Source: Limnanthes douglasii subsp. nivea
Taxonomy: Eukaryota; Streptophyta; Magnoliopsida; Brassicales; Limnanthaceae
Assembly (NCBI GenBank): GCA_036936605.1
Contig: JAUPFV010000001.1
Location: 250,106,925-250,170,924 of the forward strand
Direction: 5' to 3'
DNA length: 64,000 nucleotides
Positions 2,481 through 64,000 of this stretch are shown in pieces (positions within the stretch are counted from its first letter, which is position 1; every line of letters begins with the position of its first letter). Made by a program: the position numbers and the translations under genes. Under the pieces are notes generated by a model. The model was not told the origin of the DNA and searched no databases. It worked only from the letters and a program-made list of their open reading frames with translations.

Positions 2481-2582
2481 TTCTCATTCACTTTTCACTG
2501 TCTCATTATCTCTTTCAAATTTCACTCTGCAATTTCACCCAGAGCTTTATCGCTCTAGAACTCAAAACTTCCTTGGCTGTTT

Positions 2583-5564
2583 ATGTTTACAGCAAGAACA
2601 ACACTGATCCAAGGCGGCTGGCTTAACCTCTCGGAGTTGGAGAAAGCACAAAGGGTCGAGAAGGAAAAAAGACTTGCAGCAGGGCTACCATCGTCGACTG
2701 TTGAGAAACCAGCCTCTTCTGTCGCAGAATCTGATAGAGGCTCATCTTCTTCCAAAGGTACTAAGCCTAAAAAGCTCTTTCAATCCACCCTTTCTCCCAT
2801 AGTTTCTGGCTCCTCAGTTCATGAGTCAATCCCTGCTGTTGAACCAGGAGTTACTGCTATCAGTGTTAGGAAAAAATCGTCTTTTATTGCCATGGGGTCT
2901 GACTGTGACCACTCCCCGGATAAGCTAGTCATCAAAAGGCCAAGCCGGTTAGTCAAAGGGCTATCCTCTAAAAATACTCCCTCGAAATCGGGGGCAAAAA
3001 ACAGAGAATCTGAGTCTGGGGCAACTACTAGAGCTCCCCGGGAGAGGCCGTCAGGACTAGAGGCCAGCAGCCCACTACCCCGCAAAGAATCTTCTGCCTC
3101 AGAAACTCAAATTGAGGTGAGAATTCGAATAAATACGGGCAGTCAACAGTCCGGAGGGTCAGCTATGCCAAGCTTCAATCCTCCCCGGACTACTTCTACA
3201 GAAGCTCCCCCAACAATTATGGAGGAGAGGATGGAGGACTCCACTGAGGAGGTCCGTTTTGAGTCCGAGTCCTCCGGACAGGCTGATACTGCTATTGTTG
3301 TTGCCAAGAAGGGAAAAGAGAACTTATATCTGAGGCGTCCGGACCTGGCGGAGAGCCTTGAAGGGAGAGTGGGGCCATGCTTTCATAAAGTTGAGTTCAA
3401 GTATCTTTTGGCCTTGCTCAAGACCAAGTATGCGTTCATCCATACTTCAGATCTGGGTATATTGCGCACAAAGTGGGGGATCCCTGAGAACGTAAAGATA
3501 AGGATTCCCATCGATCCGGAGACCCCGATGGATTGTAAAAAGAATGAAATAGTCTTCTTTACGGAGCTATTCAACTGGGGACTCAGGTTCCCACTGGACC
3601 CGGAGATAGTGCGCTACTTTCACTTGGTCAAACTCTACCCATCACAGTTAAGCCCTAATGGTTGGTTCACCTTGATGTCATGCATAATGGCATCCAGGCT
3701 ATCAGGGATCCCTCTTCCTATGGAAGAGTTCGCTGCAGTGGCCAACCTGTGCAAGCATCATCAGTTCCCCTTCTACCATTTCAACATGGGGAACGATCTC
3801 AAAGCTGTTGATGATCTCCTGGAGTCGGAGAGCAAATGGAGGAGCCAATTCTTGTTTGTCAGTGGCTCGTGGGAAAACGGCAAGAAAATCAATACCGGAG
3901 AGAATCCAAGCCTCCTCAGAAGTAGATGGAGGAGTGACCGTAAGTTTTTATTTTAAGTTTCCGTTCGAATCTCTCTTTTCTTCTTTGTACTAACCAATTT
4001 CTCTTTTGTTTTAATAGAGCTGCCAAAGGAGCTCGGGGACTACCTGAAGGCCGGACAGACTACCTGTGGCAAAATCAACGCATGGGCTACAGAGAACTGG
4101 GAGAACCGTTTCCACAAGGCCTTTACCACTGGAAACCTAGCAAGGTCTCATCTGTGGAACACAACAGGTCGGAGAGACCTAACCTGGGAAGAGCTTGCCG
4201 CCCAGCCTGATCAAGACATTGTGCTGAGAAGGTCCCATGAGCTGGATGGGACACTCTACCTGCCTGCTCGGGCTAAAGCCCCAAGCAAAATGAAAGGCAA
4301 GAAGAAGAAAGGCAAGAAGGCGGAAGGTGATACTGAGAAGGAGGCCCCAACAGACCCAGAGGGACTGGCCCAGGTTCAAATTGATGCAGCCCTTTTACAA
4401 GTGGTGGAGGAGGAGAGCGAAAAGAAGGAAGTGAATCTCCCAAAACCCTCAAGAGCTTCAAAGAGGACTCGCAAGCAAGCAAGTCAAGGTGCTGACAGGG
4501 AAGTCAAGAAGAAAAAGACTTCCCAAGGAGATGAGATTGCTCTCCGGGACCCGGAACCCTCTTTCCCTACTGACCCAACATTGGCCGAAGAGATCCCAAG
4601 GGACTTTCAAGAAGAGATTCCAAAGGAATTCCATACAGATGAAGTTGAGGGGGGAGAGCTTAACTTGGATGAAATGGACATCACCGGTCTGGGTGGACTT
4701 GGTGAATATTTTCTTGGCCTGCCCAGAGACGAGTTCGCAGGGCCATACATCCCTCTGAGCAGCTCCAACACGGTCAATTTTAACGGTAAGACTTTCATGG
4801 TTTCTAGCGAGAAGGATATTATAGCCCATTCTCTACTTAGCAATGTACAGCCAGTGCTTACTTTGGAAAGGCAAGTCCGAAGTCAGGCAGACACCATCAA
4901 AGACCTCAGGTCTGAGAAGGAGAAGCTGTCCGATGACCTCCAGACTGCTGCTACTAAGGTTGATTTGCTTAAGGAGGCAAATGATCAGCTAAAGAAGAAT
5001 CAAGATGAAAACAACACAAAAGTTGCTTCTTTGGAAGAGACCATAAAAGATCTCCGGCCTAAGCTGTCCGAACTGGAGAAGGACCTGACAATCTCAAGGG
5101 GAGAAACTGCAGCCAAGGAGAAGCTCATCACCAACCTGACCACTGACAAAATCGCTTTACAGAATGCAGTGACTCATGCTGCTGAAGAGAAGGCTGTTTT
5201 GGTGAGGGACCAAGAGGCCACAATCAAGGCCAAGATCAACGCCTATGCCAGGGAGATGATACAAAGCGAGGAGCTAATGATTCAAAGGGTGAAGTCTGAT
5301 ATGGTCCTCCTGTTTCATGAGAAATTCCCGAAGAGGAGATTGGGGGACTTATGGCGCTATGTGGATGATGATGACCTCCCATATTATACTATGATTGACG
5401 AGGGTTATTCCGGTGAGTCCTCGTCTGATAATGAAGAGGAAACCGGAGAGAGCCCAGGCGAAGAAGAGATTGATCCCAAGGGAAAAAAGATAGTCGAAAA
5501 GAAGAGCAATATCAAGGGCAAGAAGACAGACGAGGGCGAGCCATCTTCAAAGGCTCAACCTTAA
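2583..5564 (+). CDS. Antisense accessory ORF of the gypsy element (PF04195-like, coiled coil), two exons
   Basis: Exon 1 is 2583-3939. A GT..AG intron (3940-4017, donor CCGTAAGT, acceptor TTTTAATAG, 78 bp) is removed, and exon 2 runs 4018-5564 in frame, giving about 967 residues without a stop. The N-terminus is Ser/Lys-rich and low complexity. Residues about 245-420 match the 'putative gypsy type transposon' family (RFPLDPEIVRYFHLVKLYPSQ, PNGWFTLMSCIMASR). A Lys-rich nuclear-localisation-like stretch (KMKGKKKKGKK) lies near 545. A long coiled coil spans about 731-870. The tail is acidic (DNEEETGESPGEEE). Such ORFs are known as extra antisense genes of plant gypsy elements; their function is not known. 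Here it is the only intact gene of the element. Confidence 0.8.
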
Positions 5565-19880: not shown

Positions 19881-21490
19881 AAGTTGAGTGATGATTTGTG
19901 GGGTTTAGATGTCGAATGCGGCGTTCACAATCACGACACTACATCGTACAAAGAAGGTCATTCTTACTTGGGACGATATAACAAAGGATGGATTTTGTAG
20001 TTACTTATATGAAAATGGGATCCCGTCCTCAGGACATTCTCGGTGGGGTTAAGAAGTTGAACCCCAAGAATTCTTCCTCAATGCGCACCGTCTACAACGC
20101 TCAACTAAAACATCGGAAGCTCAAGAAACTTGGTCGGTCGCAATTCCAATACTTGTTGGGCAAACTAAAGAGGCTAAACTACTACGAATTTCATAGAAAG
20201 TCCGGAGACGGAAGCGATGTCATAGGCGAGCTTTTCTTCGCGCACCCGGTTAGTTTGGATTTGTTACGCACATTTCCAAACGTGATTGAAATGGATAACA
20301 CGTACAAGGTGATCAAATATGGGATGCCATTATACGAGGTATTCAGAGCCACTTGTACGGGGAAGAATTTCTACATCAGATTCGCGTTCATGTCGGGGGA
20401 AACATTCGAGAGCTACAAATGGGTGTTAGAGTGCTTACATTCTTTGATGGTAACTCACTCCATCGAATTACCATCCATCGTTTTGACGGATAGAGACTTG
20501 GCGCTTGTGAAGGCGGTGGAGGATGTGTTCCCCAATGCAACACATATGTTGTGTCGATGGCACATCAACATGAACGTCCTAGGGAAAACAAAAAATATCT
20601 TAAAGGATAAGAAAGTGTCCAACGCATTCTTGAAAGTGTGGAATGAAATGATGTTGGCTGAAATGGAAATAACGTTCAACGACTACCGAGCCGAATTGCA
20701 CCGTGACTTCAAAGAGTATCCGCAAGCAATTGAATATACGGAAAGTTGGTTAGGGCCTTACGGTGACAACCTTTTGACGTGGAGAACCAACAAGTGGATG
20801 CATTTTGGTAACCAAACCACAAACCGCGTCGAGAGCGCTCATTCGACCCTCAAACGTTTCATCGGTACGAGCAAAGGTAACTTTGAATCTTTTTTGTTGA
20901 AGTTGCATACCTTGATAGAATTTCAGCATGGGGACATAAAGGGTTCATTTGAAAAGATCCGCTTGTTAGCCCTACACAAGTTCATAACCAAGGTGTACGA
21001 GAAACTAAAAATCAACGTCTCACACTATGTCTTGGATATTTTGTCCGGCGAAGTAGATTGTGCTCGCAACATGACAACCGCGGGTTGTATGCCTTGCGGT
21101 TGCTCAATACGAAGCACACATGGTATCTCTTGCGCGCACGATATCTACAAGTTTGTCACCAAAGGGTTAGAGGTACCGCTAGAGTTTTTTAACGAACATT
21201 GGAAGAGGTTGGAAATTTTAGTCCGTACAAACCTCACGACTATGGAACAACTAAAAGAGAAGCTTGACAAACTACTATGTGATGTCACGGAATCCAAAGA
21301 TCAAGCGCGAATAGAGTACGTCTACAAAAAATGTTTTTCCGTCGTCCATCCGGAGACAACTACCATTTTGGAGCCATTGGTGAAGCCAAAAGCACGCGGT
21401 TATCCACCTAACAAGTGCAAGCTTTCTATTGTCGTTGATGATACATCCACTAAACGCGAAAAAAGTGGGCACGAGTATGTGCTTGAATAG
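19881..21490 (+). pseudogene. Mutator-like (MULE/FAR1-type) transposase, N-terminus frameshifted
   Basis: The frame 19988-21490 (500 residues) is open. Upstream, 19881-19987 encodes the end of a FAR1-like DNA-binding domain ([23 protein letters not shown]) in another frame that ends in TAG, so the N-terminus is broken. Acidic catalytic residues are visible: Asp in IEMDNTYKVIKYGMPLYEV, Asp in VLTDRDLALVKAVEDVFP followed by CRWHINMN, and Glu in NRVESAHSTLKRF. A SWIM-type zinc motif follows (CMPCGCSIRSTHGISCAHDI). The gene is the DDE transposase of a MULE. It is followed after about 170 bp by an OTU protease gene, normally fused or adjacent in this element type. Stops at 21488 and 21550 separate them here. 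Confidence 0.85.
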
Positions 21491-25893: not shown

Positions 25894-27870
25894 CTAGAAT
25901 AACATACATATCAAGAAGCCAACTACGATAATCAAAATCCACGGACCGGTGATCTCCAGCACCTTCCTCGCAAACGACACCATCTCGTCAGTCGAATCGT
26001 CTAACGGCCGAACACGATTAATCGTGTTCACCACATCGATCGTGGACGCCTCAGTAAGAATCCGAGGCGCGATGTTAAACCAACCGTACCTCTTCACGTA
26101 TGCCTTGTACTGGGGGGATGACGTGTAAGTACTCCCTTCCAAGGGCCTCGAATACCTATCAATCACGTATATATGCTCCCTCCAGTTAGTCCAATGCCTA
26201 CCCTAAAGCGCATAGCGAAGATGATCTCCTCTAGGAAGACCGATTCTAGCAACAAGGGGGTCCATCGGCTTCTCTTGGACCCAACCAAACTGGCGCATCA
26301 CTCGGTCCGGGTGATATGCCTTGCTCATAAGCATAAGGCAATAGGGTTTCGGTACAACCCTATTGCCTGCTCCGGCCACACTTCACAACATCCTCGTAAG
26401 GTCGGAATATAACCTAAAAAAAACAATTACTCATACTAAAGTTTATATAGAATAGAGATATATAAATAAACATAAAGAAGGTAACTTACATCCATCTCTC
26501 TTTAATCCGCGAGGATGTCACGGTAGAACGGCTTCCCGCGAACTAATGATACCGGGACCATTTTGGGCAACCACGCCAGTATTTTCGGATCCGTTGGGCT
26601 ATAACCGTTATTCACCGACGCCCGGAAAATAGGGAAGTGGTCATAGACCCAACACTCCAACAGGGCCGAGAACCTAACCAAACTCTTCAAGGAGTGCTTC
26701 GAAATGCCTCCCAAACTCTTGTACAACCACACGAGTGCACAAGTACCCCATGCGTACTCACGAAGCTTCGCCAAGTCCTCAAGGTGGTGGAGAAAATCGC
26801 ACTGGATGTTCTTCTGGCTCGTGCTGGTGAAGATGGTACACCCGAGGAAGAACATGATGTATGCCCTAGCTTCCGCCTTCTTCAAATCCGTAGTCAGGGC
26901 GGCATTGGAATCTAAATACTCGTCCGTGGAGAATGTCGTCCTAAGCCATCGGAGGGCGAATCCACTCCCGTCATGCGCCTTCATTTCCTGCCGCACAGCA
27001 TCAGCCAAAACTACCAACAAGTCTGCATAGCGTGCGTATGTCGCCTCTATCGGATCCGGCCTAAAGACATCGATAATTCTCCCCTCAACCGGGAGGCCAG
27101 TAATTACGTACACATCATCGAGTGTCAAAGTCATCTCCCCGAAGAAAACCTGGAAGGTGTTCGTCTCTTGGTGCCACCTCTCAATGAACACCTCGGCCAA
27201 CTGCACATATTTGTTGAACTTTGGTAGATGCTGCATCAACGGCCAGAACGGTATCCCTTCCAGGTAAGCCCTAACCCCCATTTATTTGCTAAGGTCCCAC
27301 TAACCAAACAAACCGTACTTGGACTAGACCGTGATACCCGAGCGCGACTGTAAAAATATTCAAAAATATATATAATGTTAACAAAAACAATTTAACTAAT
27401 AAAACATATAATTAATTCGATAACTTACGTCATCTTTAAAGTCGTTGTACGCCTCATGTTGGGCATAGTCCAAGAAACGAAGGACGCTATTTTGGGATAG
27501 AAATAGATTTTTTCATCCTTCCGGATTGGTTGGACGCCCTTCCGCATGGACCTCTCTTCGAGGTGGTGGCATTGGGACCTTCGTTTCCTCCTTCGTGTCC
27601 TCCTCGTCCATTAGCGCACGCCGCCGTTAAATGGGGACCACCTCTCGTGGATGAGAAGATTGTTCTACGGCCTCCCTTGGGGCACCGCGATCCCTTGTGG
27701 CGTCATATTTTCTATGCCGCAAGGATCGTTCGATGTGGCCCTGGCGCACCTCATGCTCGGTACGATCCCCACGTTCGGGGCGATCAACCACTGGCTGTCG
27801 ACTAACTTTGCATTTCCTCGCCGCTTTAGCCGTCTTCTCCTTCGCGGGGCGAGGTGCTTCGTGTCTGTAG
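25894..27870 (-). pseudogene. Plant mobile domain (PMD, aminotransferase-like) gene, broken
   Basis: The main open block (27281-26502) has the PMD signature: FIERWHQETNTFQVFFGEMT, LTLDDVYVITGLPVEGR, and WGTCALVWLYKSLGGISKHS. Upstream minus-strand exons near 27870-27430 hold a charged N-terminus and NSVLRFLDYAQHEAYNDF before a GTAAGT donor (about 27430), with stops. Downstream, after DILAD and TAA, a GT donor (about 26487) joins an acceptor near 26411 to VIFRPYEDVV. A frame change is followed by YHPDRVMRQFGW, a TAG in AL*GRHW, and HIYVIDRYSRPLEG. The last frame ends in a hydrophobic segment (PWILIIVVGFLICMLF). PMD genes are related to MAIN/MAIL and occur inside MULEs. This copy has at least five breaks. 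Confidence 0.75.
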
Positions 27871-54349: not shown

Positions 54350-57300
54350 CAATTAAAAATATAAGGCTCAATCTCATTAGCCGTTTATTATATCTATAAA
54401 TAAAATCTTATACATCGTGTAATGTAATTGATACTTTCTAAATAATAAAAAACCCTAACCATTATCTCTCTTTTATTAATATTTAACATGGTATTAAAGC
54501 GTGGAGTAATCTGATCGGGGAAGCGTAGCAATTCTATTTCGTAGATTTACCGGTACCGGTACGGAAATTGGTCGATCACAACCCCGATAGAGAAAATAAG
54601 TACTATCGTGAACGTATTAATTAGTAAAATTATCGTTAAAAAATACGACCACTTGCTGTTAATTAGTAAGATTACCCTTATATACGAGTATTATATGTTA
54701 TTCATGATCGATAAAATTGCTAACTTAAATTATTGGTAAAATTGCGATAGTGGTTGAAATTAAGGATTGAAAATATTTAGTAAAATAGCAATACTTGGTG
54801 AAAAGACGAGTAGTAAGCGTGTATTGCAGGTGAATTAATGGGGAATCAATTGGTAAAATTAAAATATTGAATTATTCGTAAAATTGTATTAATTAATTAG
54901 AGAAAATTAATTCGTGAAATTGCAAAATATTAATTGGTAAAATTCATTATAGATAATTAATTTGGATTTCGGTTTAGCATTTAAAAAAGTATGATTTTTT
55001 ATTTAGTTTGATTGTGATTTCAGTTTCATTTCACTTGAATTTTGGATTTCATTTTGCGTGGTTTCCAATTTGTTCTCTTGTTTTTCGATTGGATTTGTGT
55101 TGGAATTTTTTATCTGTTTTTTCGTGAGAATAGATATAATTTTCAGTTTTTGAATCTGTTGTTTGTAGTCTCAATCAGACAGTCCGATCGAAAGACAAAC
55201 GGTGTCCGCTTTTTCTGAATTTCAGAGAGCGTGTTCGACCCATACAATCCTTCAATCTAACCGACTCGATTATGATTCAGTGCTACAGTTCTGGACAAAT
55301 TACTACTGGAACAATGCAGCAGTTTTGTTGGTTCAACCGTGAATTTGATTATGGTTTTGGTTTTGGTTTTAGTTTTGATTTTGATTTTGATTTTCATTTT
55401 CATTTTGACTGGAAATTGGAAATTGGAAATTGGAGAATAGAAATTGGGTATTGGAAATAGGTTTAGTTTGGTATTTTGGTATTTGGATTTAGTTTGGTAT
55501 TTGGACATGGTTTTGGATTTGGACTTGGTTTGATTTTAGATTTGAGGTTTGATTTGATTTTTACGATTCAGATTTGGTATCTCTTGATTGTTTGATTTTG
55601 TTGGATTAGGAATTGTGGATCTTATTGTGAATATAATAAGAAAGATGATTTTCTACAGTCTACTAGTAACAAACTGAATAAGAAGAACTTTGTTATGTAT
55701 ACATCTGCATACCATTCAGGTATATCCTCGTCTTTCACTTCACGTATTGATTCACCATTGTGGATTTTGGATTCGGGTGCATCTTATCATATGTCACCTC
55801 ACATGTCGAACTTTATTTTGTTGTATCATATCTCACCCATATCTGTTTTGTCTACTAGTGCTATAACAATTTCAGTAGAAGGTATTGGATCTATTTATAC
55901 CCCTCATATATCGCTATCCAATGTTTATTACATTCCCACCCTTGCTTTGAATCTTGTTTCGGTTAGCCAATTGTGTAAATCTGGTTATTGTGTCTTGTTT
56001 TCTGATTCGGTTTATGCTATACAAATCAACAGACTCATAGAGTGATTGTGATATGTCGTAAAATAGGGGAACTCTATGTTTTAGAAAAACTCAAAGTAAT
56101 AGACATGGATGTCTATGGTGTTGATAGTGGAAAAACATACTTGATTGATATTGTGGCCTCCGGTGTTGATTTTTGTTCGTTTTGTTTAAATCCTTCATCC
56201 TCCGAGTTTTATCTTTGGCATTCTCGTATGGGACATATATTTGCATCGCACTAAAAACATTTAGTCTCTACAGGTGCTTTAGGACAGCTAAACAGTTATC
56301 ATATCTCGGATTGTAGTGGTTTTAAACTTGCTAAACAATTTCGGAAGCGTTTAATGAAAGCGTCATTTCTTCTATTGCTTCTTTTGATATTATTCATTCT
56401 GATGTCCGGGGTCCATTGTCTGTAACCAAAAAGGATGGTTCATCCTATTATGTTTCTTTTATCGACGATCATACTCGATGTACTTGGTTTTCCTTATGAA
56501 ATGGAGATTAAATTTTCTTTTAATTTATAGAGAATTTCGGGCACTTGTTAAGACTCAAAATTCTAATGTAATAAAATGATTCGATTGTGACTTATGGGGT
56601 GAATATACATCCAATGATTTTACTCAGTTAATTGCATCTGATGGTACCATGCATCAGTCTTCTTGCACTGACACCACTCAACAGAATGGTGTTGTAGAAA
56701 GAAAACACTGTCACCTTATTGAGACTGCTCGTTCTTTGCTTTTATCTACTGAGATTCCTACTATTTTTGGGAAAAGCAATTCATACTACTGTATATTTGA
56801 TCAATCAAATTCCCACTACTCATAATACAAGAATGTCTCATTTTCAGAAGTTATACAGAACACTTCCAGATTATCCTTTGTTTGGATGTACATTTTTTGT
56901 TTTTCGTCCTCATGTAGAACACAACAAATTGGACCCTAAATCCGTAATATGTGTTTTCTTTGGTTATGGTGTTAGACAGAAAGGTTATCGTTTTTTATCT
57001 CACTTGTCAGAAACTTTATGTCTCTCAACATGTTACATTTCTTGAGCATATCCCGTTTTATTCGATTCCAATACAATCACATTATATAACAAGTACCAAA
57101 CTTCAGATTATTGGTCATTTTGAAAATAATAACGACATACCCATTTATATACATGTGTCAGCTAATGAGAGATCGACTATAACTTATACTACTTCTGCTC
57201 TATCAAGGACTGATTCAGCTCATTCTTTTAGTGAACCAAAAGCCCCACCCTGTTGAAGATCTACTCGTACAAGTAAGTCTACCAAACTACCAAATTTTGG

Positions 57301-59016
57301 GTATTATTCTTACTCAGATTCTTTCGCATCTTTCTTAGCGAACATACGTAACTTATATGAACCTCAGTCTTTTAAAGAAGTTGTTTCTGATCCTTGTTGG
57401 CAAAACGCAATAGTCAAATAGCTTACCTTTTTTTCTTAGACTTATACATGGGATCTAGTTAAACCTCCATTCGATAAGCATATAACTGGATCTTGATGGG
57501 TTTCTAAAATTAAAACAAATTCTGATGGGTCTATCAAAAGCTATAAGCCTCGTTTTGTAGCAAAAGGGTATTCACATAAGTATGGTATGGATTATGATGA
57601 GACATTTTCCCCAGTGGCAAAAATGATGACAGTTTGTACTCTTATTGCGGTTGCATCCGTTCGCCAGTGGAAAATCTTCAAACTAGATGTCAAAAATACA
57701 TTTTTGAATGGTGATCTTCATGAGGAGGTTTACATGACTCATCTTCCAGTTGTGGCTCACCAACCAGGTAAAGTTTGTCGACTTAGAAAAGCTTTATATG
57801 GTCTCAGACAAGCTCCTTTTGTCTGGTTTGAAAAATTCTCTATAGTTATTACCTCACTTGGTTTCTTTGCTAGTAATCATAATTCAACCTTGTTTATCAG
57901 ATGTACAACTGCATGGAGAATTATTTTATCTCTATATGTAGATGATATGATCATAAAGGTGATGATATTGGTGGTATTCAGGCACTAAAACATGATTTGG
58001 CTTAGCATTTTACGATGAAATACTTGGGACTATTACGTTAATGTTTAAGTATTGAGGTGTCTCACTCTCCAGCATGTTACATTCTCTCTCAGATAAATAT
58101 ATAACTGATTTATTCGAGCGAGCACGGCTTTCTGATAACAGGATGGTATATAACCATCTTGAAACTAATGCTTGGTATTCGCCGATTGATGGTGTTCCTT
58201 TGTCAGACTTAACTCTATATTGAACTCTTGTAGGGAGCTTGGTCTATCTTACAATTACTCAACCAATATAGCTTATGATGTTCACATGTTTAATTAGTTT
58301 GTTACTTCTCCTATATCCGTCTATTAGGGAGCTGTTCTTCAAATATTGAGATATCTTCGTTGCATTCAGTTCCATAACATTTTATTTCCTTTGACCTGTT
58401 CAGTTGAAATGATTGCCTATAACGATGCTGATTGGGATAATGATCCTCATGACCGATAATCTACTAATTGTTTCTTTATTTTCTTTAGAGATTCATTAAT
58501 ATCATGGAAAAGTAAGAAACAAGATGTTGTCTCTAGATTGTCTACTGAAGCTGAGTCCCGTGCTATGGTCATCACCACATGTGAGATTGTTTGGTTACGA
58601 TGGCTTCTTACAGATATGAGGGTTAATATTCCCACTTCCTTACATTGTGATAACAAAAGCGCCATGCGGGTAGCAAAGAATTATGTTTTTCATGAGATGA
58701 CAAAGCACATTGAAATAAATTGTCACTTCACTCAGCATCATTTTCAGATTGACATCATCTCGCTTTCATATGTTCTATCAGCTTTACAGGTTGCTGATAT
58801 TTTCACGAAGGCTCAGTCAACAGCGCGGTTTTTCTTACAAACTCTCAATATTTATTTCTTGTTACATTATTAGTTTGAGGGAGGGAGTTAAAGATATAAG
58901 TTCCAAGCCCGTTAGCCCTTTAATATATCTATAAATAAAATCTTATGCACTATGTAATAGATACTTTCTAAATAATACAAAAACCCTAGTCGTTCTCTTT
59001 TCTCTCGTATTTAGTT
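54350..59016 (+). mobile_element. Ty1/copia element 2, same family as copia 1
   Basis: LTRs of about 139 bp (54350-54488) and 131 bp (58886-59016). The primer site TGGTATTAAAGCG starts at 54489, directly after TTTAACA. The tract GAGGGAGGGAG precedes the 3' LTR. LTRs and pol clearly match copia 1 at 32544-37818, which is in the opposite direction. The 1.1-kb leader (54489-55620) has no gag; it contains a run of GATTTT/CATTTT words at 55350-55420. No short target duplication is visible. Confidence 0.85.
55620..58870 (+). pseudogene. Copia 2 pol, frames broken
   Basis: Protease: WILDSGASYHMSPHMSNF (55765). Pre-integrase: GELYVLEKLKVIDMDVYGVD and SEFYLWHSRMGHIFAS (56060-56250). The integrase is heavily broken (56300-57050), ending FGYGVRQKGY. 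RT: MDYDETFSPVAKMMTVCTL, KIFKLDVKNTFLNGDLHEEV (57680), KALYGLRQAPFVWFEKF and LYVDDMI (57940). RNase H: AYNDADWDNDPHD and STEAESRAMVITTCEIVWLR, then HCDNKSAM and VADIFTKA. RT motifs are better preserved than in copia 1. Several stops and frame shifts. Confidence 0.85.
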
Positions 59017-61190
59017 TGGTATTTGGGTATTTGGATTTAAGGGAGAAACAAACTATTTTTTTTACACAAATAATTGTAAGTATTACTCCTTATATTCAAA
59101 TCTGTCATACAGACAGTATAAACAATGGAGATGACAACTGAGATAAGACTGCATTGGAAACTCTAATAGACAACATTGGAAAAAAACCTATGAAAAGAAG
59201 GACTGCTCTCGTAAGATAATCTATAAATATGTAAAAAGTGTTCGAATGGAAGATCCTTCATCAAAGACGAGAAGAGAATACAATGTTAAAAGAACAAAAG
59301 GATAATCCTAACTCTTACATCTAAGCATGACGTGAGAGTGATGATAAAAAATCCTCGAATAAAAAATGAAAATGACCAAATAATTATACCATCTCTGAAT
59401 ACTAGGGTACTACCATATATGAGGATGCATCATGGGTACCGCATGCCCCTACGTGACCATATACCGCTACCCCACTATCTAGCTTATTTCCAGAATGCTA
59501 TTGAGTACCCTCTGACAATATGTGTAGAACCCACAACAAGGAAAACATCATAAAAATGGGGATCTATTAGCTATATAAATCCAAATATAGATTTTCAGCC
59601 ACGTAAATCAAAGCAAAATATGAATATAGTTGGTTAGGGTTCCAGCATATGCATCCATTTATGAAATATTTTCATGATAATAACGAGAATAAATAACCTC
59701 ATCTAGATGAAAAACTCTTTCTAGCTATAAAATTTTAATATCACATAATAACGTCACGCCATGCCAAAACCTGTTAAATATATGGTGTGACGATATCGTA
59801 ACATTTTCCATTACTATTAGTGAGGTTATGATTTTTTTTGTTTTCACTTAAACAAAATGATATTACAAAAGGTGTAATTAAAAGGAGTGATTGTTTTTTA
59901 CATAAATATTTTAGAAATAAAAAATCAAAATTATTTTTTTAATAAAATATATTTAAATAAAAGGCAAATTCGAATAAAAACAATACAAAAGCTACAAAAT
60001 AATTCAAATCAAAATCTTAATAAAAAATATTCAAATACAAAACATAGTATCTAAATTTGAAATTTAATGGAAAAATAAAGTATTTTTTTAGCTGTGTTTA
60101 ATTTTTTTAATTATTGTTTTATTTTGAATTAATTAATATTATAATTTTTAAACATAAACATTTGTAAAACTAAATTTGTAAATTATCTAAGTTAAATCAA
60201 TATAAAACAAGTTAGATATTGACACACGACAATAGAAAAAAAGTTTAAATATAATTCGAATTATGAAAGAAAATATATGTTTCAAAAACAAAAAAAACAG
60301 ATAAAAACATTCCATATGAATTTTATTTCTTATTCAAATGTAAAGACTTATATAAACAAAATATTGTAAATAAAATTTATATTGTGGAGCAAAACATATC
60401 ATTTTGAGTATTTTAATTGGAATATTTATATTATATTTTTTTAATCTCGGATATAATTATTGTCATTTTTAACCTACTATTTTGATTGTATTATTTTGGT
60501 TAGATAAATATTCACTCATCGTGTATAATTAAAAATAAAAAAAATTATATCCTTGTATTTATATAAAATATAAAAATAATTTAAAATACAATTATATTTA
60601 ATAGAATAAAAATTTTAATCATTTTTAAATATATACATAATGAAACTTATATATATATAGTTGTATTAGTTGTGATTCAAATATATTTTGTTTTACGCTA
60701 TAATTCATTAGTTATTTAGCCCACTAACACTTCAGATTATTACTTTTAATATTCTGACTTAAGTCCTTTGTAAGATACACAAATCAAATTAATAAAACAA
60801 TAATTGTTTTTTGTTTTATTTTTCTGGTTTGAAGCATTAATCGATCCTTGGTTAATTTTATTAGAGAAAGGTGATGCCTGAATTTTTTTTGTTCTTGCTA
60901 TTTTGCTTTGATCTTGCACGATTTGGCATTCTAATTTGATCATGTCAGATTTGGGATTTTGTTTTGATCATGTTCGATTTTGTGTACTGCTTTGATCCCG
61001 TTTGATTTAGTATATACTTTTATATTGTTTTGTTTGGTATTTTGCTTCGATCTTGTTTGATTGTTTGATTATATATGTGAATGTTGGTGTGCAACTTGTT
61101 AAGTTTAATTTACATATGTTATTTGATTAGACATCATGGACTCCTATGGCTATAATAATATGAAATTAATGATATGAAATTAAGACTTTC
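59017..61190. other. AT-rich DNA with a degenerate minisatellite
   Basis: No gene recognised; the frame 59332-59553 matches nothing I know. 60903-61077 repeats a roughly 28-30-bp unit of the type TTTTGCTTTGATCTTGTTTGAT five to six times with many changes. 59820-60700 is very AT-rich with no feature. Confidence 0.5.
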
Positions 61191-61519
61191 TGATGACGTG
61201 GCGGAAACAGAAGAAGAAGCAACGAAATATGAAACCCTAATTCAAGGGTAAAATGATGCAACCCTAATCTAAGGGTAACAAAGAGTGAAATTTTCAGAGA
61301 TAAAAAAAATATTATTCCAAAAATTTAAAATAACTTAAGGTATGAGGCTTTATATAATAGTTTCTAAAAACCCTAAATTATAATACAAGAAAATAAAATA
61401 AATATTTTAAAATAAAATCAAATAAAATCAAATCTTAATATAATTAGATCTTATTTAAATACATAAGATATTTGAATAAAATAAACAAGGCTTTTGTTTG
61501 GACTTTCTGGGCTACATCA
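61191..61519 (-). repeat. LTR A of a minus-strand LTR retrotransposon (329 bp)
   Basis: Ends TGATGACGTGGCGGAAAC and GGGCTACATCA, with an inverted TGATG/CATCA pair. On its right, the minus strand has ACGAGAGGA, a polypurine tract. Related to LTR B (62046-62440) at both ends, but shorter and diverged inside. Confidence 0.75.
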
Positions 61520-62045
61520 TCCTCTCGTGGTTGACAAGAATTCGTCCTCGAATTCACAGCACCATCACCATCAAGACCCCAAATTATTTATTTTATTTTA
61601 TTCAATCGTACATTGGGAATTATAATTGTTGACCTTATCGGAATAAGATAAATTCTTCTCGAGTGTTCCTTATTCGAAGTCACATTGAAGCCATCTAGTT
61701 GAAGGAAAAAAATAGTTTCGAAAACCTTTTCATAGCCTGAAGACAACATCCCCATGTCTAGTTGATGAAAAAAAATGGTATTGAAAACCTCTTCATAGCC
61801 TGAGACAGCATCTCGATAAGAAATTTTTACCTTGATTCAACGATTGGTAGCCAATTTAAACTCCTTCAGTAACCGGTCAATACGATCGTCATTGAAACGG
61901 TTGGTATGCCCCCTCATACTCAAACGATCTTACTGATCTTCATGGCCATGTGTGTTGTTCTCTTCTTTAAACCTTTGAATCAGATGAAATCAGGATTCAG
62001 AAACATGCTTGACCCGTAGCAGGAACTGAGGCTCTGATACCAAAC
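61520..62045 (-). mobile_element. Short internal region between LTR A and LTR B
   Basis: Starts on the minus strand with a primer site TGGTATCAGAGCCTC (62042-62028). A short gag-like start follows (GHTNRFNDDRIDRLLKEF), then non-coding DNA with a 60-bp repeat (61690-61810). It ends with CEFEDEFL-like codons and the purine tract next to LTR A. Only 526 bp long, so this is a miniature non-autonomous element sharing LTR B with its neighbour. Confidence 0.6.
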
Positions 62046-62440
62046 TGATGACGCAGCGGAAATAGAAGAAACAGACAACGATAAAACCCTAACCCTAGGT
62101 TAGAGAAATAAGGAGACTCAGAATAATAACTCTCAAAATTCAATTAATCAAAGTCTGACGGCAAAATAGGGTATAGAATGCTTTATATAACATTAACCAA
62201 ACCCTAATTCCAAATAAAGAAAATTACATAAATGTCTAAAATAAAATAAATAAAAATAACGTCAAAATATTAAAACTGATTTTGGAAGACTTTAGAGATC
62301 GAATTTGGATATCAAACTTTGTGACAAGTCACAGCTTTGAAATCTGACAGTCTCGTCGAAATATTCAGTTTGGGTACCTGTTTCACCAAATTCCGATACC
62401 TGACCAAGAAACCAGTTTGTCCGCAATCTTCGCTACATCA
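62046..62440 (-). repeat. LTR B (395 bp), shared by two internal regions
   Basis: Ends TGATGACGCAGCGGAAAT and CTTCGCTACATCA. On its left is the primer site, and on its right, on the minus strand, the purine tract GGGGAAGGA. It therefore serves as 5' LTR of the short unit (61191-62045) and 3' LTR of the gene-carrying unit to its right (to beyond 64000). Confidence 0.75.
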
Positions 62441-64000
62441 TCCTTCCCCGGTTGGGAAGAATTCATCCTCGAATTCAAAACGTTGAAACATTGGACGAAT
62501 TGTACTACGACATTCGGAAGTGAATGACTCAACTCCCGCGCTATGGAAATCCCAAGTTATAGGATCCAAGTCAGCATCGAAAGGGATATCATGAAGCTTG
62601 ACATATAATGGAGCAAATGACTTCAAAATGAAGGACCACCCAGCGGTAACACTTGCATAACAAACATATCTAGAAACTGGATCGATAATTGATGCATATC
62701 CAGCAATAGTAGACGAATAAGCTATGTAGGTATTAATGAATTCGAGAGTATGCCTTAGCTTATGGTAAGCATCCTTTGGAGGCAGTTTAGGTTCGGTAAT
62801 CAACTTTCCAACTTTGTTGATTATGACCACAAGAGGATTGCGATCCTGGACTTCATGGCGTATAGTTCTCTCCATGTGCACCATTACACCTTCCGCGGCT
62901 GTTGAGACCCATAACATATCTGATTTATTGATGCTAATATGTCTCGTGAATAGAAAAAATAAGAAATAGAATCCCATTACTATTATGTGCCACGACCATT
63001 CATCTCTGTCGGTGGGAGCAGATTTCATAACATGAATGATTCCCATTAGTATAGTGAAACGAAAAATTAAAAGCAGACACTTTAGTTGTTGTAGTGATAC
63101 AGTCACTATAGAAACATTCGCAACAGTTTCCCAAAAACAATTTCCTCCAGTGATAGAAATAATTGCCTTAGTATCCGTAATGAAAAACAGCATGTTGAAC
63201 TCTATATTGGATCTTATAGTAGAAATCAACTGTAAGTGCACCTCATTTTTTGTAAGATCGACAGACAGTTCATGCCATCCAAACGCATTATCGCTGGTAC
63301 AAACAATGCACATGTCGGAATAATTTTGCAAGATAAGAAACCTGCCCCAACAGAATTCAAATTTTTCATCAATTTCCCAATAAACCTTGTTGAAGTGTTC
63401 AAATTTCCTACTGTCATTGTGATATAGGATCCTCCGTGGAGTGCCCCCAATGTGAATTTTCTGCACATTAAGCCTCTTGCAGTGTACTATTTCTATCAAG
63501 TTCAGACTGTTCTCTGCCACAAAAATGATTCTGTTAGGTACGTCAACTCCACCGAAGGCACGCCTCTGCACAATTTCCTGCACACTGTTGCGAAACATTT
63601 CTGGTTTGGTAACTGGCATTGTTATCACAGCATCACAAATATATCCAACCATAACCTCTGGACTCATCCCTGTTTTCTTTAGAATAAGACCAAGCTCTTC
63701 TGCAAAAACAGTTTCAAAGAGACTATTCCCGTTGGAGTTCAGGTCCAAAACAATACCCCTATTTCCAGCAAAAGTCATCTCTAAGGCAGACACCAATAGG
63801 CCACCGTCACTGATATCATGACCAGCAGATATCAATTCATCACCAAGAAGATCTTGAATTCCATCAAAGACTGTTTTCAAGTATAAAACGTCCTCGAGAT
63901 CTGGACAGTCATTACCAATTTGGTCAAAAGCTTGAGCCAGGGCAGATCCACTTAAGCGTCGCTTCCCCTTTGCCAAATCAACGTGAAGCAAAACATCAGT
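62438..64000 (-). CDS. Chimeric ORF of captured host gene fragments in an LTR element (partial at window edge)
   Basis: Open on the minus strand from the window edge to TGA at 62438 (at least 520 residues). Positions count from 63991, where the frame reads LLHVDLAKGKRRL. About 1-106 match FGAM synthase (PurL/PUR4): GSALAQAFDQIGNDCPDL, LISAGHDISDGGLLVSALEM. About 153-196 match a CPSF-A/DDB1-like protein: VAENSLNLIEIVHCKRLNVQ, HIGGTPRRILYH. About 365-474 match the U5 snRNP GTPase Snu114: EGVMVHMERTIRHEVQDR, LPPKDAYHKLRHT, ATAGWSF-like SVTAGWSF, LYVKLHDIPFDAD. The GTPase NKxD motif reads NKVG. The stretch 207-364 is unassigned. The last codons (RFEFEDEFFPTGEG) are retrotransposon pol-end sequence running into the purine tract and LTR B. 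Confidence 0.75.
   Translation of the reverse strand, partial: TDVLLHVDLAKGKRRLSGSALAQAFDQIGNDCPDLEDVLYLKTVFDGIQDLLGDELISAGHDISDGGLLVSALEMTFAGNRGIVLDLNSNGNSLFETVFAEELGLILKKTGMSPEVMVGYICDAVITMPVTKPEMFRNSVQEIVQRRAFGGVDVPNRIIFVAENSLNLIEIVHCKRLNVQKIHIGGTPRRILYHNDSRKFEHFNKVYWEIDEKFEFCWGRFLILQNYSDMCIVCTSDNAFGWHELSVDLTKNEVHLQLISTIRSNIEFNMLFFITDTKAIISITGGNCFWETVANVSIVTVSLQQLKCLLLIFRFTILMGIIHVMKSAPTDRDEWSWHIIVMGFYFLFFLFTRHISINKSDMLWVSTAAEGVMVHMERTIRHEVQDRNPLVVIINKVGKLITEPKLPPKDAYHKLRHTLEFINTYIAYSSTIAGYASIIDPVSRYVCYASVTAGWSFILKSFAPLYVKLHDIPFDADLDPITWDFHSAGVESFTSECRSTIRPMFQRFEFEDEFFPTGEG

Follow-up and report, generated by a model that had tools for sequence, protein, structure and literature searches.

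Transduction of host gene pieces by a retrotransposon is known from maize Bs1, a low-copy element with long terminal repeats (LTRs). Bs1 carries pieces of ATPase, xylan endohydrolase, and β-1,3-glucanase genes, and passages of one account report that its chimeric gene is transcribed and translated (PMC13317346). In rice and sorghum, 672 and 1343 LTR-captured genes, respectively, are given in passages of a second account, which treat the captured genes singly (PMC3726574). Here, we describe a family of LTR retrotransposons in Limnanthes douglasii subsp. nivea that carries multi-gene mosaics of host coding sequence. It was reached through a fused open reading frame at the end of a stretch of 64,000 nucleotides, referred to as the window (assembly GCA_036936605.1, contig JAUPFV010000001.1, C1:250106925-250170924), and the search space was the whole assembly of 1.78 Gb.

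Like Bs1, the family brings several unrelated host genes from processed mRNA within one LTR element. Unlike Bs1, it comprises at least 150 scored gag loci, with loose candidates in the thousands; its mosaics are of many kinds, up to seven identified genes share a frame, and the captured part is weakly constrained. The rice and sorghum cases are alike in having host genes inside full-length LTR elements, whereas here the frames are multi-gene, fused to gag, and belong to one family. Retroviral oncogene transduction starts from spliced cellular mRNA, involves template switching, yields in-frame gag-onc fusions, and needs a helper. Spliced mRNA is likewise fused in frame to gag in the present family; however, the captured product drives selection in the retroviral case, whereas here the captured sequence drifts. 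Large retrotransposon derivatives (LARD) and terminal-repeat retrotransposons in miniature (TRIM) are non-autonomous LTR elements that lack pol and are moved in trans, and in contrast to them the family keeps a constrained gag together with in-frame host coding pieces. Pack-MULEs, Helitrons, and Pack-CACTA are DNA elements that take up genomic DNA. They, too, bear several gene pieces, according to passages of PMC13317346, but here the introns are spliced out. Among the open-access papers listed by literature searches, no title or abstract start described a family of multi-gene mosaics that are fused to gag and only weakly constrained in the captured part; subscription papers and preprints were outside the scope of those searches. 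Bs1-like transduction is known, and the gag-fused multi-gene mosaic family is a new form of it.

The frame in the window runs on the minus strand without stops over 62441-64000 (520 codons), is open at the window edge, and reaches 637 codons in all once it is read beyond position 64000. It holds at least four host-gene pieces, followed by a tail, a purine tract, and an LTR whose bases 1-3 (TGA) form the stop codon. The parts are as follows.

62438..64000, minus strand: fused open frame, 520 codons inside the window, stop TGA from the LTR
63667..64000, minus strand: FGAM synthase piece, query 1-334 matched at 93%, host gene C334:73583495-73588552
63402..63538, minus strand: piece of an unnamed host gene (earlier label CPSF-A-like), two exons, join near 63494-63500
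62936..63107, minus strand: sulfate-transporter piece, two exons, join 62998/62999
62570..62899, minus strand: SNU114 piece, three exons joined, host gene within C334:47715800-47718400
62441..62569, minus strand: tail codons common to the family (..RPMFQRFEFEDEFFPTGEG), ending in the purine tract ACCGGGGAAGGA

The FGAM synthase piece matches Pfam AIRS_C (expectation value E 8e-11) and PFAS in the PDB (E 2e-19), and the sulfate-transporter piece matches Pfam PF00916 (E 2e-6) and a plant SULTR-like transporter in the PDB (E 1e-13); the closest host exons found for the latter, C1:50632239-50632346 and C1:50632033-50632097, are 85% identical. The SNU114 piece matches fission-yeast cwf10 (E 7e-20) and human SNU114 (E 1e-18) in the PDB, where its top match (E 2e-23), a chain of 989 residues, carries the label chloroplastic EF-Tu. 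The unnamed piece corresponds to two host exons at 92-93% identity (C223:7111474-7111518 and C223:7111181-7111279). Nothing in Pfam, in two PDB searches, or in a protein and region search identified it as CPSF-A/DDB1; judged by its sequence matches it is captured host sequence, for which the name CPSF-A is unproven.

The original prediction had proposed an LTR retrotransposon with an uninterrupted minus-strand frame of more than 500 codons, fused from several host genes in the manner of Bs1, and this is supported. Its FGAM synthase and SNU114 segments, the tail codons, purine tract, and LTR at the end of the frame, and the loss of the NKxD aspartate (NKVD in the host, NKVG in the element) were all recovered. 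The multi-gene fusion stands, but the count of three genes rises to at least four, since the sulfate transporter had been overlooked, and the CPSF-A/DDB1-like label gives way to two exons of the unnamed gene. The statement that almost all other frames are broken holds for the last 8 kb, where the next longest frame has 163 codons. It fails for the window as a whole, in which six others of 202-535 codons are present. Rather than a singular case, the element is one of a large and diverse family.

The introns of the host genes are gone from the element. The SNU114 host gene, found with Pfam PF16004, has introns of ~380 and ~120 bases within the captured stretch, and both are absent from the element. 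The closest host gene found for the sulfate transporter has a 141-base intron exactly at the element's exon join, and ~190 bases lie between the two exons of the unnamed host gene; neither is present in the element. In a related copy, five exons of COG8 are joined and four host introns are gone. Host introns are thus missing from all four pieces tested (SNU114, COG8, sulfate transporter, and the unnamed gene), which indicates that spliced mRNAs were captured. The FGAM synthase host gene is a single 1736-codon frame and is therefore uninformative on intron loss. C334:43186595-43192864 (plus strand) holds another locus resembling FGAM synthase; it is diverged and comprises several exon-like pieces as well as stops. 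Among the protein matches listed, FGAM synthase reached 86% identity with Castanea and others, and a COG8 exon 95% with Pistacia and others.

The extent of the family was gauged with several queries. A gag DNA query of 751 bases gave 1746 first-look candidates, 40 of which were scored (95-100% identity), a tail-plus-LTR query gave 2963, and two gag protein queries gave 5787 and 7106; these first-look counts are loose and unconfirmed, and will include solo and fragmentary LTRs and autonomous relatives. Copies were read at 12 sites reached through the fused frame and at 12 further gag loci (8 + 4) from the scored 40. The latter came mostly from the top of the list, with their frames not known beforehand and one taken per group of look-alike neighbours. 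The related copies are 3.6-4.8 kb long and keep a Ty3-type gag (PF03732, E 5e-16; PF19259, E 7.5e-10), and the scanned frames of the gag copies yielded no pol domain.

Eight copies have two LTRs of ~368 bp, and the Kimura two-parameter distance (K2P) between the LTRs of a pair is 0.003-0.026. Six of the eight are flanked by an exact 5-bp target-site duplication (TSD), a seventh agrees in 4 of 5 bases, and the eighth has a cut 3' LTR. The 5' LTR is followed by TGGTATCAGAC (L032 differs by one base), the 3' LTR is preceded by ACCGGGGAAGGA, and the tail continues into the 3' LTR, whose first bases are TGA. An ATG lies 31 bases past the LTR in seven of the eight copies and 62 bases past it in S07. 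With LTRs that have TG..CA ends, a primer-binding site, a purine tract, and TSDs, these are LTR retrotransposons. Judged by gag alone, the Ty3-type capsid/gag of the relatives places the family in the Ty3/Gypsy superfamily.

Named host pieces were recognized by family and structure search in 9 of 15 gag copies (S07, S08, S12, L029, L030, L032, L033, L035, and L036). L031, L037, and L039 share stretches with these copies, L031 by comparison and the other two by eye; L034, L038, and L040 were left out of the host-piece search. Of three protein searches, two were dominated by a single captured gene each. Four copies illustrate the range.

C441:73.757 Mb: copy L036, a 992-codon frame with seven host genes
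C1:20.225 Mb: copy L033, 1286 codons with gag, RRM, isocitrate dehydrogenase, an RBBP4/7-type WD40 protein, and FGAM synthase
C223:316.684 Mb: copy S08, 1309 stop-free codons with gag, F-box/LRR, FGAM, and more
C1:174.82 Mb: copy S12, gag, Argonaute, and DNA gyrase A in one frame

The seven genes in the one frame of L036 are threonyl-tRNA synthetase, MCM2, the cytokinin receptor AHK4, Tra1, a Roq1-like resistance protein, COG8, and a P5A ATPase. Between gag and this frame lies a brief segment read in a different frame, and the copy has little in common with ten others compared. The 3' LTR of L033 was not found. Most of a kinesin motor is present in L032, Clp_N and AAA domains in L029, an NT-C2 domain in L035, and a squalene-hopene-cyclase-type domain that spans a frame shift in L030. 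Some pieces of the mosaics are common to several copies and missing from others.

Further observations concern the makeup of the family. L038 (C1:18494843-18499942) has a diverged tail and a polygalacturonase-like piece, recognized by eye, seemingly with its own 5' leader and start codon. Six gag loci share a 519-codon frame (C1:297150013, 297291082, 297445004, and 297586074; C368:150247 and 291904), and their spacing of ~141-154 kb on C1 and 142 kb on C368 probably reflects segmental duplication. A 649-codon frame is common to 15 of 150 gag loci and a 660-codon frame to four, including L040, which reads from gag to tail without a stop; these seem to be short mosaics that multiplied.

We consider it fairly probable that a high-copy Ty3-type family which keeps gag and the tail carries a mosaic of spliced host mRNA in place of pol, and that its frame is subject to a filter. 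Gag would package the element RNA and occasionally cellular mRNAs, and a reverse transcriptase supplied by an autonomous relative would switch template to a host mRNA and then back. Repeated rounds, together with recombination between copies, could then accumulate and reshuffle the pieces. Missing introns, sense orientation, LTR ends, and TSDs together point to template switching onto spliced mRNAs, and reverse transcriptase must act in trans for the copies read because scanning of their frames gave no pol domain. A candidate for the autonomous partner is provided by relatives with a frame of exactly 1472 codons, seen in 9 of the 107 gag matches listed. Their alignment to the gag query, which has 400 residues, ends at residue 361-364; this would fit a single gag-pol frame.

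As to the filter, the element RNA would serve as the gag mRNA, and RNAs in which the gag frame stays open to the 3' LTR would preferentially survive and be copied. An early stop after gag would leave a 3' untranslated region (UTR) of 2-3 kb and might, as one example of a cause, expose the RNA to nonsense-mediated decay (NMD) or another translation-dependent decay. NMD eliminates transcripts with long 3' UTRs and has been assayed in Nicotiana (passages of PMC6277124), and translation-dependent silencing of Copia gag RNA is described for Arabidopsis (passages of PMC8892269). Either process could favour RNAs that are read through to the LTR. The captured protein sequence would be free to drift as long as the frame stays open. 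The more specific proposal that the host mRNA pieces are disposable in-frame filler, with amplification selecting gag and an open frame and largely ignoring the content of the filler, is one that we make tentatively and hold to be quite possible, if somewhat doubtful.

The length and openness of the frames bear on this filter. Of the 150 loci scored among the 5787 gag protein candidates, 85 have a frame of 600 codons or more, and the thresholds of 900 and 1100 codons are reached by 42 and 29 loci, respectively. Some of these loci may be autonomous gag-pol elements, and segmental copies enter the counts separately. In FGAM-bearing element copies, open frames of 1130, 1144, 1198, 1221, 1286, and 1309 codons occur alongside shorter ones of 191-812. 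From the gag ATG to the LTR, S08 has no stop in frame versus 77 and 106 in the other two forward frames. For the eight two-LTR copies, stops and frame changes from gag to tail, over 2.8-4.1 kb, number 0, 1, 1, 2, 2, 3, 3, and 6, and the other forward frames contain up to 112 stops. A random null that was re-phased every 300 bases, with the number of joins being assumed, gave mean disruptions of 7.3-12.7, and all eight copies fall below its mean. Ten frames outside the scored path (nine antisense and one sense, from the 24 longest of six copies) gave no Pfam match at E ≤ 0.01, so that among these ten no out-of-frame captured domain was seen.

These frames could also be long without any filter, if spliced mRNAs were captured neutrally and the frames stayed open because the coding pieces kept their own frame and the copies are young. 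We regard this as rather unlikely, although it is the strongest of the alternatives. It accommodates the drift of the captured parts under little constraint, the small K2P values, which show those eight copies to be young, the nonsignificant depletion of nonsense changes described below, and the frame changes in several copies. However, unrelated pieces are expected to be in frame at one third of the joins, yet one frame spans seven genes, the four pieces and the tail in the window are in frame, and so are gag, RRM, isocitrate dehydrogenase, the RBBP4/7-type histone-binding protein, and FGAM synthase in L033. The disruptions below the random-phase mean in eight of eight copies also argue against it.

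The ratio of nonsynonymous to synonymous divergence (dN/dS) separates gag from what follows. Pooled over pairs among 11 copies, with regions of fewer than 30 comparable codons per pair excluded, it is 0.40 for gag (55 pairs), 0.79 for the post-gag linker (45), 0.78 for the captured part (22), and 1.13 for the tail (17); the captured value becomes 0.83 if the linker is counted as captured. Single captured pairs range from 0.48 to 2.7 among the 16 with at least 60 codons and both types of change, each with few changes. The COG8 piece differs from the host gene by 61 changes at a dN/dS of 1.06, with no stop, a 9-base in-frame deletion, and a 4-base gap at a join, and the SNU114 pieces give 0.84-1.84 against the host. 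An apparent stop in the host column of the SNU114 alignment of S06 is read as an alignment effect. With S08 as the reference and the linker included, variants shared between copies comprise 59 missense, 21 synonymous, and 0 nonsense changes, and private variants 196, 52, and 8. It seems that the sequence of the captured host protein matters little and that the open frame may matter. Separately, S01 and S06 differ in the SNU114 piece by 18 nonsynonymous changes and 1 synonymous change in 115 codons, a skew beyond neutrality in small numbers.

Several points weigh against a family with a frame filter and freely drifting contents. At least one frame change is needed in six of the eight copies scored along the path, and frame-shifting indels in the post-gag linker are common to two or more copies. 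Some of the shared indels lie near module joins and are read as alignment-edge effects, and others, near 890-1015, as shared linker indels. Because linker indels are shared between copies, an open frame across the linker is not strictly required. The pooled dN/dS of the captured part is below 1 and several larger pairs give 0.48-0.65, so some constraint is possible, and the copy pairs are not mutually independent. Depletion of nonsense changes is not significant, with 0 against 2.55 expected for COG8 (P 0.06) and 0 against 1.1 for SNU114 (P 0.3), and FGAM nonsense changes number 0-2 against about 2 expected in the longer copies; because no single test reaches significance, nonsense depletion is not used for a strong claim. 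The 1472-codon partner is a candidate picked by frame length and gag similarity. Finally, FGAM pieces compared with the present host gene over at least 100 codons give a dN/dS of only 0.18-0.27.

This last value was considered as a sign of constraint on the captured protein and rejected. Differences from the host gene that are fixed in the FGAM pieces comprise 26 synonymous and 7 nonsynonymous changes, whereas those that vary among 10 copies comprise 33 synonymous and 82 nonsynonymous changes and 2 stops, both private (Fisher 4e-7). Most of the constrained divergence therefore predates the spread of the copies. Most simply, it arose before capture, in the source gene, and was followed by near-neutral drift of the copies, which needs a paralogue that is lost or unseen.

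Selection on the sequence of the fused protein as a new and useful product has been argued for Bs1, though we do not treat it as a defining trait of Bs1-like elements; for the present family it appears improbable. The long open frames, the low FGAM ratio against the host, and a pooled captured dN/dS somewhat below 1 would suit it, but that dN/dS is about twice that of gag (0.78 versus 0.40), COG8 and SNU114 are near or above 1 against the host, the NKxD aspartate is gone, and gene content differs between copies. Capture of genomic DNA by a DNA transposon such as a Pack-MULE or Helitron, with a subsequent invasion by an LTR element, is very improbable. Such plant elements do carry gene pieces, according to passages of PMC13317346 and PMC7264820, and another part of the window contains a MULE transposase domain. 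However, the absence of introns refutes this origin for the four pieces tested, and the pieces lie between LTRs with a primer-like site, a purine tract, and 5-bp TSDs, the named ones in the sense of gag. An assembly artefact is equally improbable, for although misjoins are possible in the segmental duplication, 1.3 Mb apart, that comprises the window copy and its closest relative, mosaic parts recur on several other contigs at ~84-97% identity, the join of FGAM to the next piece recurs at four other loci and the later joins elsewhere, and the recurring copies S07 and S12 have their own LTRs and TSDs.

The insertion in the window is itself composite. It measures 4529 bp and has GAAAG at both borders. 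From a truncated 5' LTR it runs through the mosaic and the tail to a purine tract and the inner LTR; beyond these come a primer-like site, a short internal segment, another purine tract, and lastly the outer LTR. The parts downstream of the frame are listed here.

62046..62440, minus strand: inner LTR (TGATGTAGC..GCGTCATCA)
62031..62042, minus strand: primer-binding-like site TGGTATCAGAGC
61520..61531, minus strand: second purine tract
61191..61519, minus strand: outer 3' LTR (TGATGTAGCCCAGAAAG..CGTCATCA), diverged
61186..61190, no strand assigned: target-site duplication GAAAG, partner beyond the window at C1:250172644-250172648

The inner LTR is followed not by plain flank but by the primer-like site, presumably of the initiator Met tRNA type, and the second LTR. 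The structure is in keeping with template switching between element RNAs. Beyond position 64000, where the original prediction had expected a 5' LTR and gag, only a remnant of the 5' LTR, almost wholly deleted, was found; it adjoins the partner GAAAG, and its first 17 bases are those of the outer LTR. The copy begins there with what we take, by eye, to be a remnant of a retroviral-type protease, and no gag match was found in the window copy, including its part beyond the window. A sister copy, 98.7% identical and 1.3 Mb away, has a frame of 779 codons and is a segmental duplicate rather than a second insertion, because the flanks are common over ~17 kb, in pieces, at 97-98%.

Elsewhere in the window, broken frames at 55596-58873 (plus strand) have, by eye, the look of a Copia-type gag-pol with integrase and reverse-transcriptase motifs. 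A 502-codon frame with the MULE transposase domain lies at 19982-21490 (plus strand), and a 259-codon frame with a plant mobile domain (PMD, E 4e-39) at 26502-27281 (minus strand). Two abutting frames of 465 and 535 codons, with one stop between them, occupy 2559-5564 (plus strand) and give a weak TMF_DNA_bd match below the cut-off.

The scale on which this retrotransposon family shuffles genes is unusual. Judging from passages of PMC13317346, worked plant cases of retrotransposon-mediated exon shuffling are few, with Bs1 foremost among them, and in the present family many separate mosaics can be set against the host source genes of the same assembly, with insertions that can be dated. It lets one ask how capture proceeds, whether RNA quality control influences which RNAs of retroelements are copied, and at what rate new chimeric proteins are offered to the host. 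It also poses a hazard for annotation, as such frames could pass for multi-domain genes. If the captured host pieces are indeed disposable in-frame filler, the family would amount to continuous, genome-wide exon shuffling that yields gag-fused chimeric frames of more than 1000 codons.

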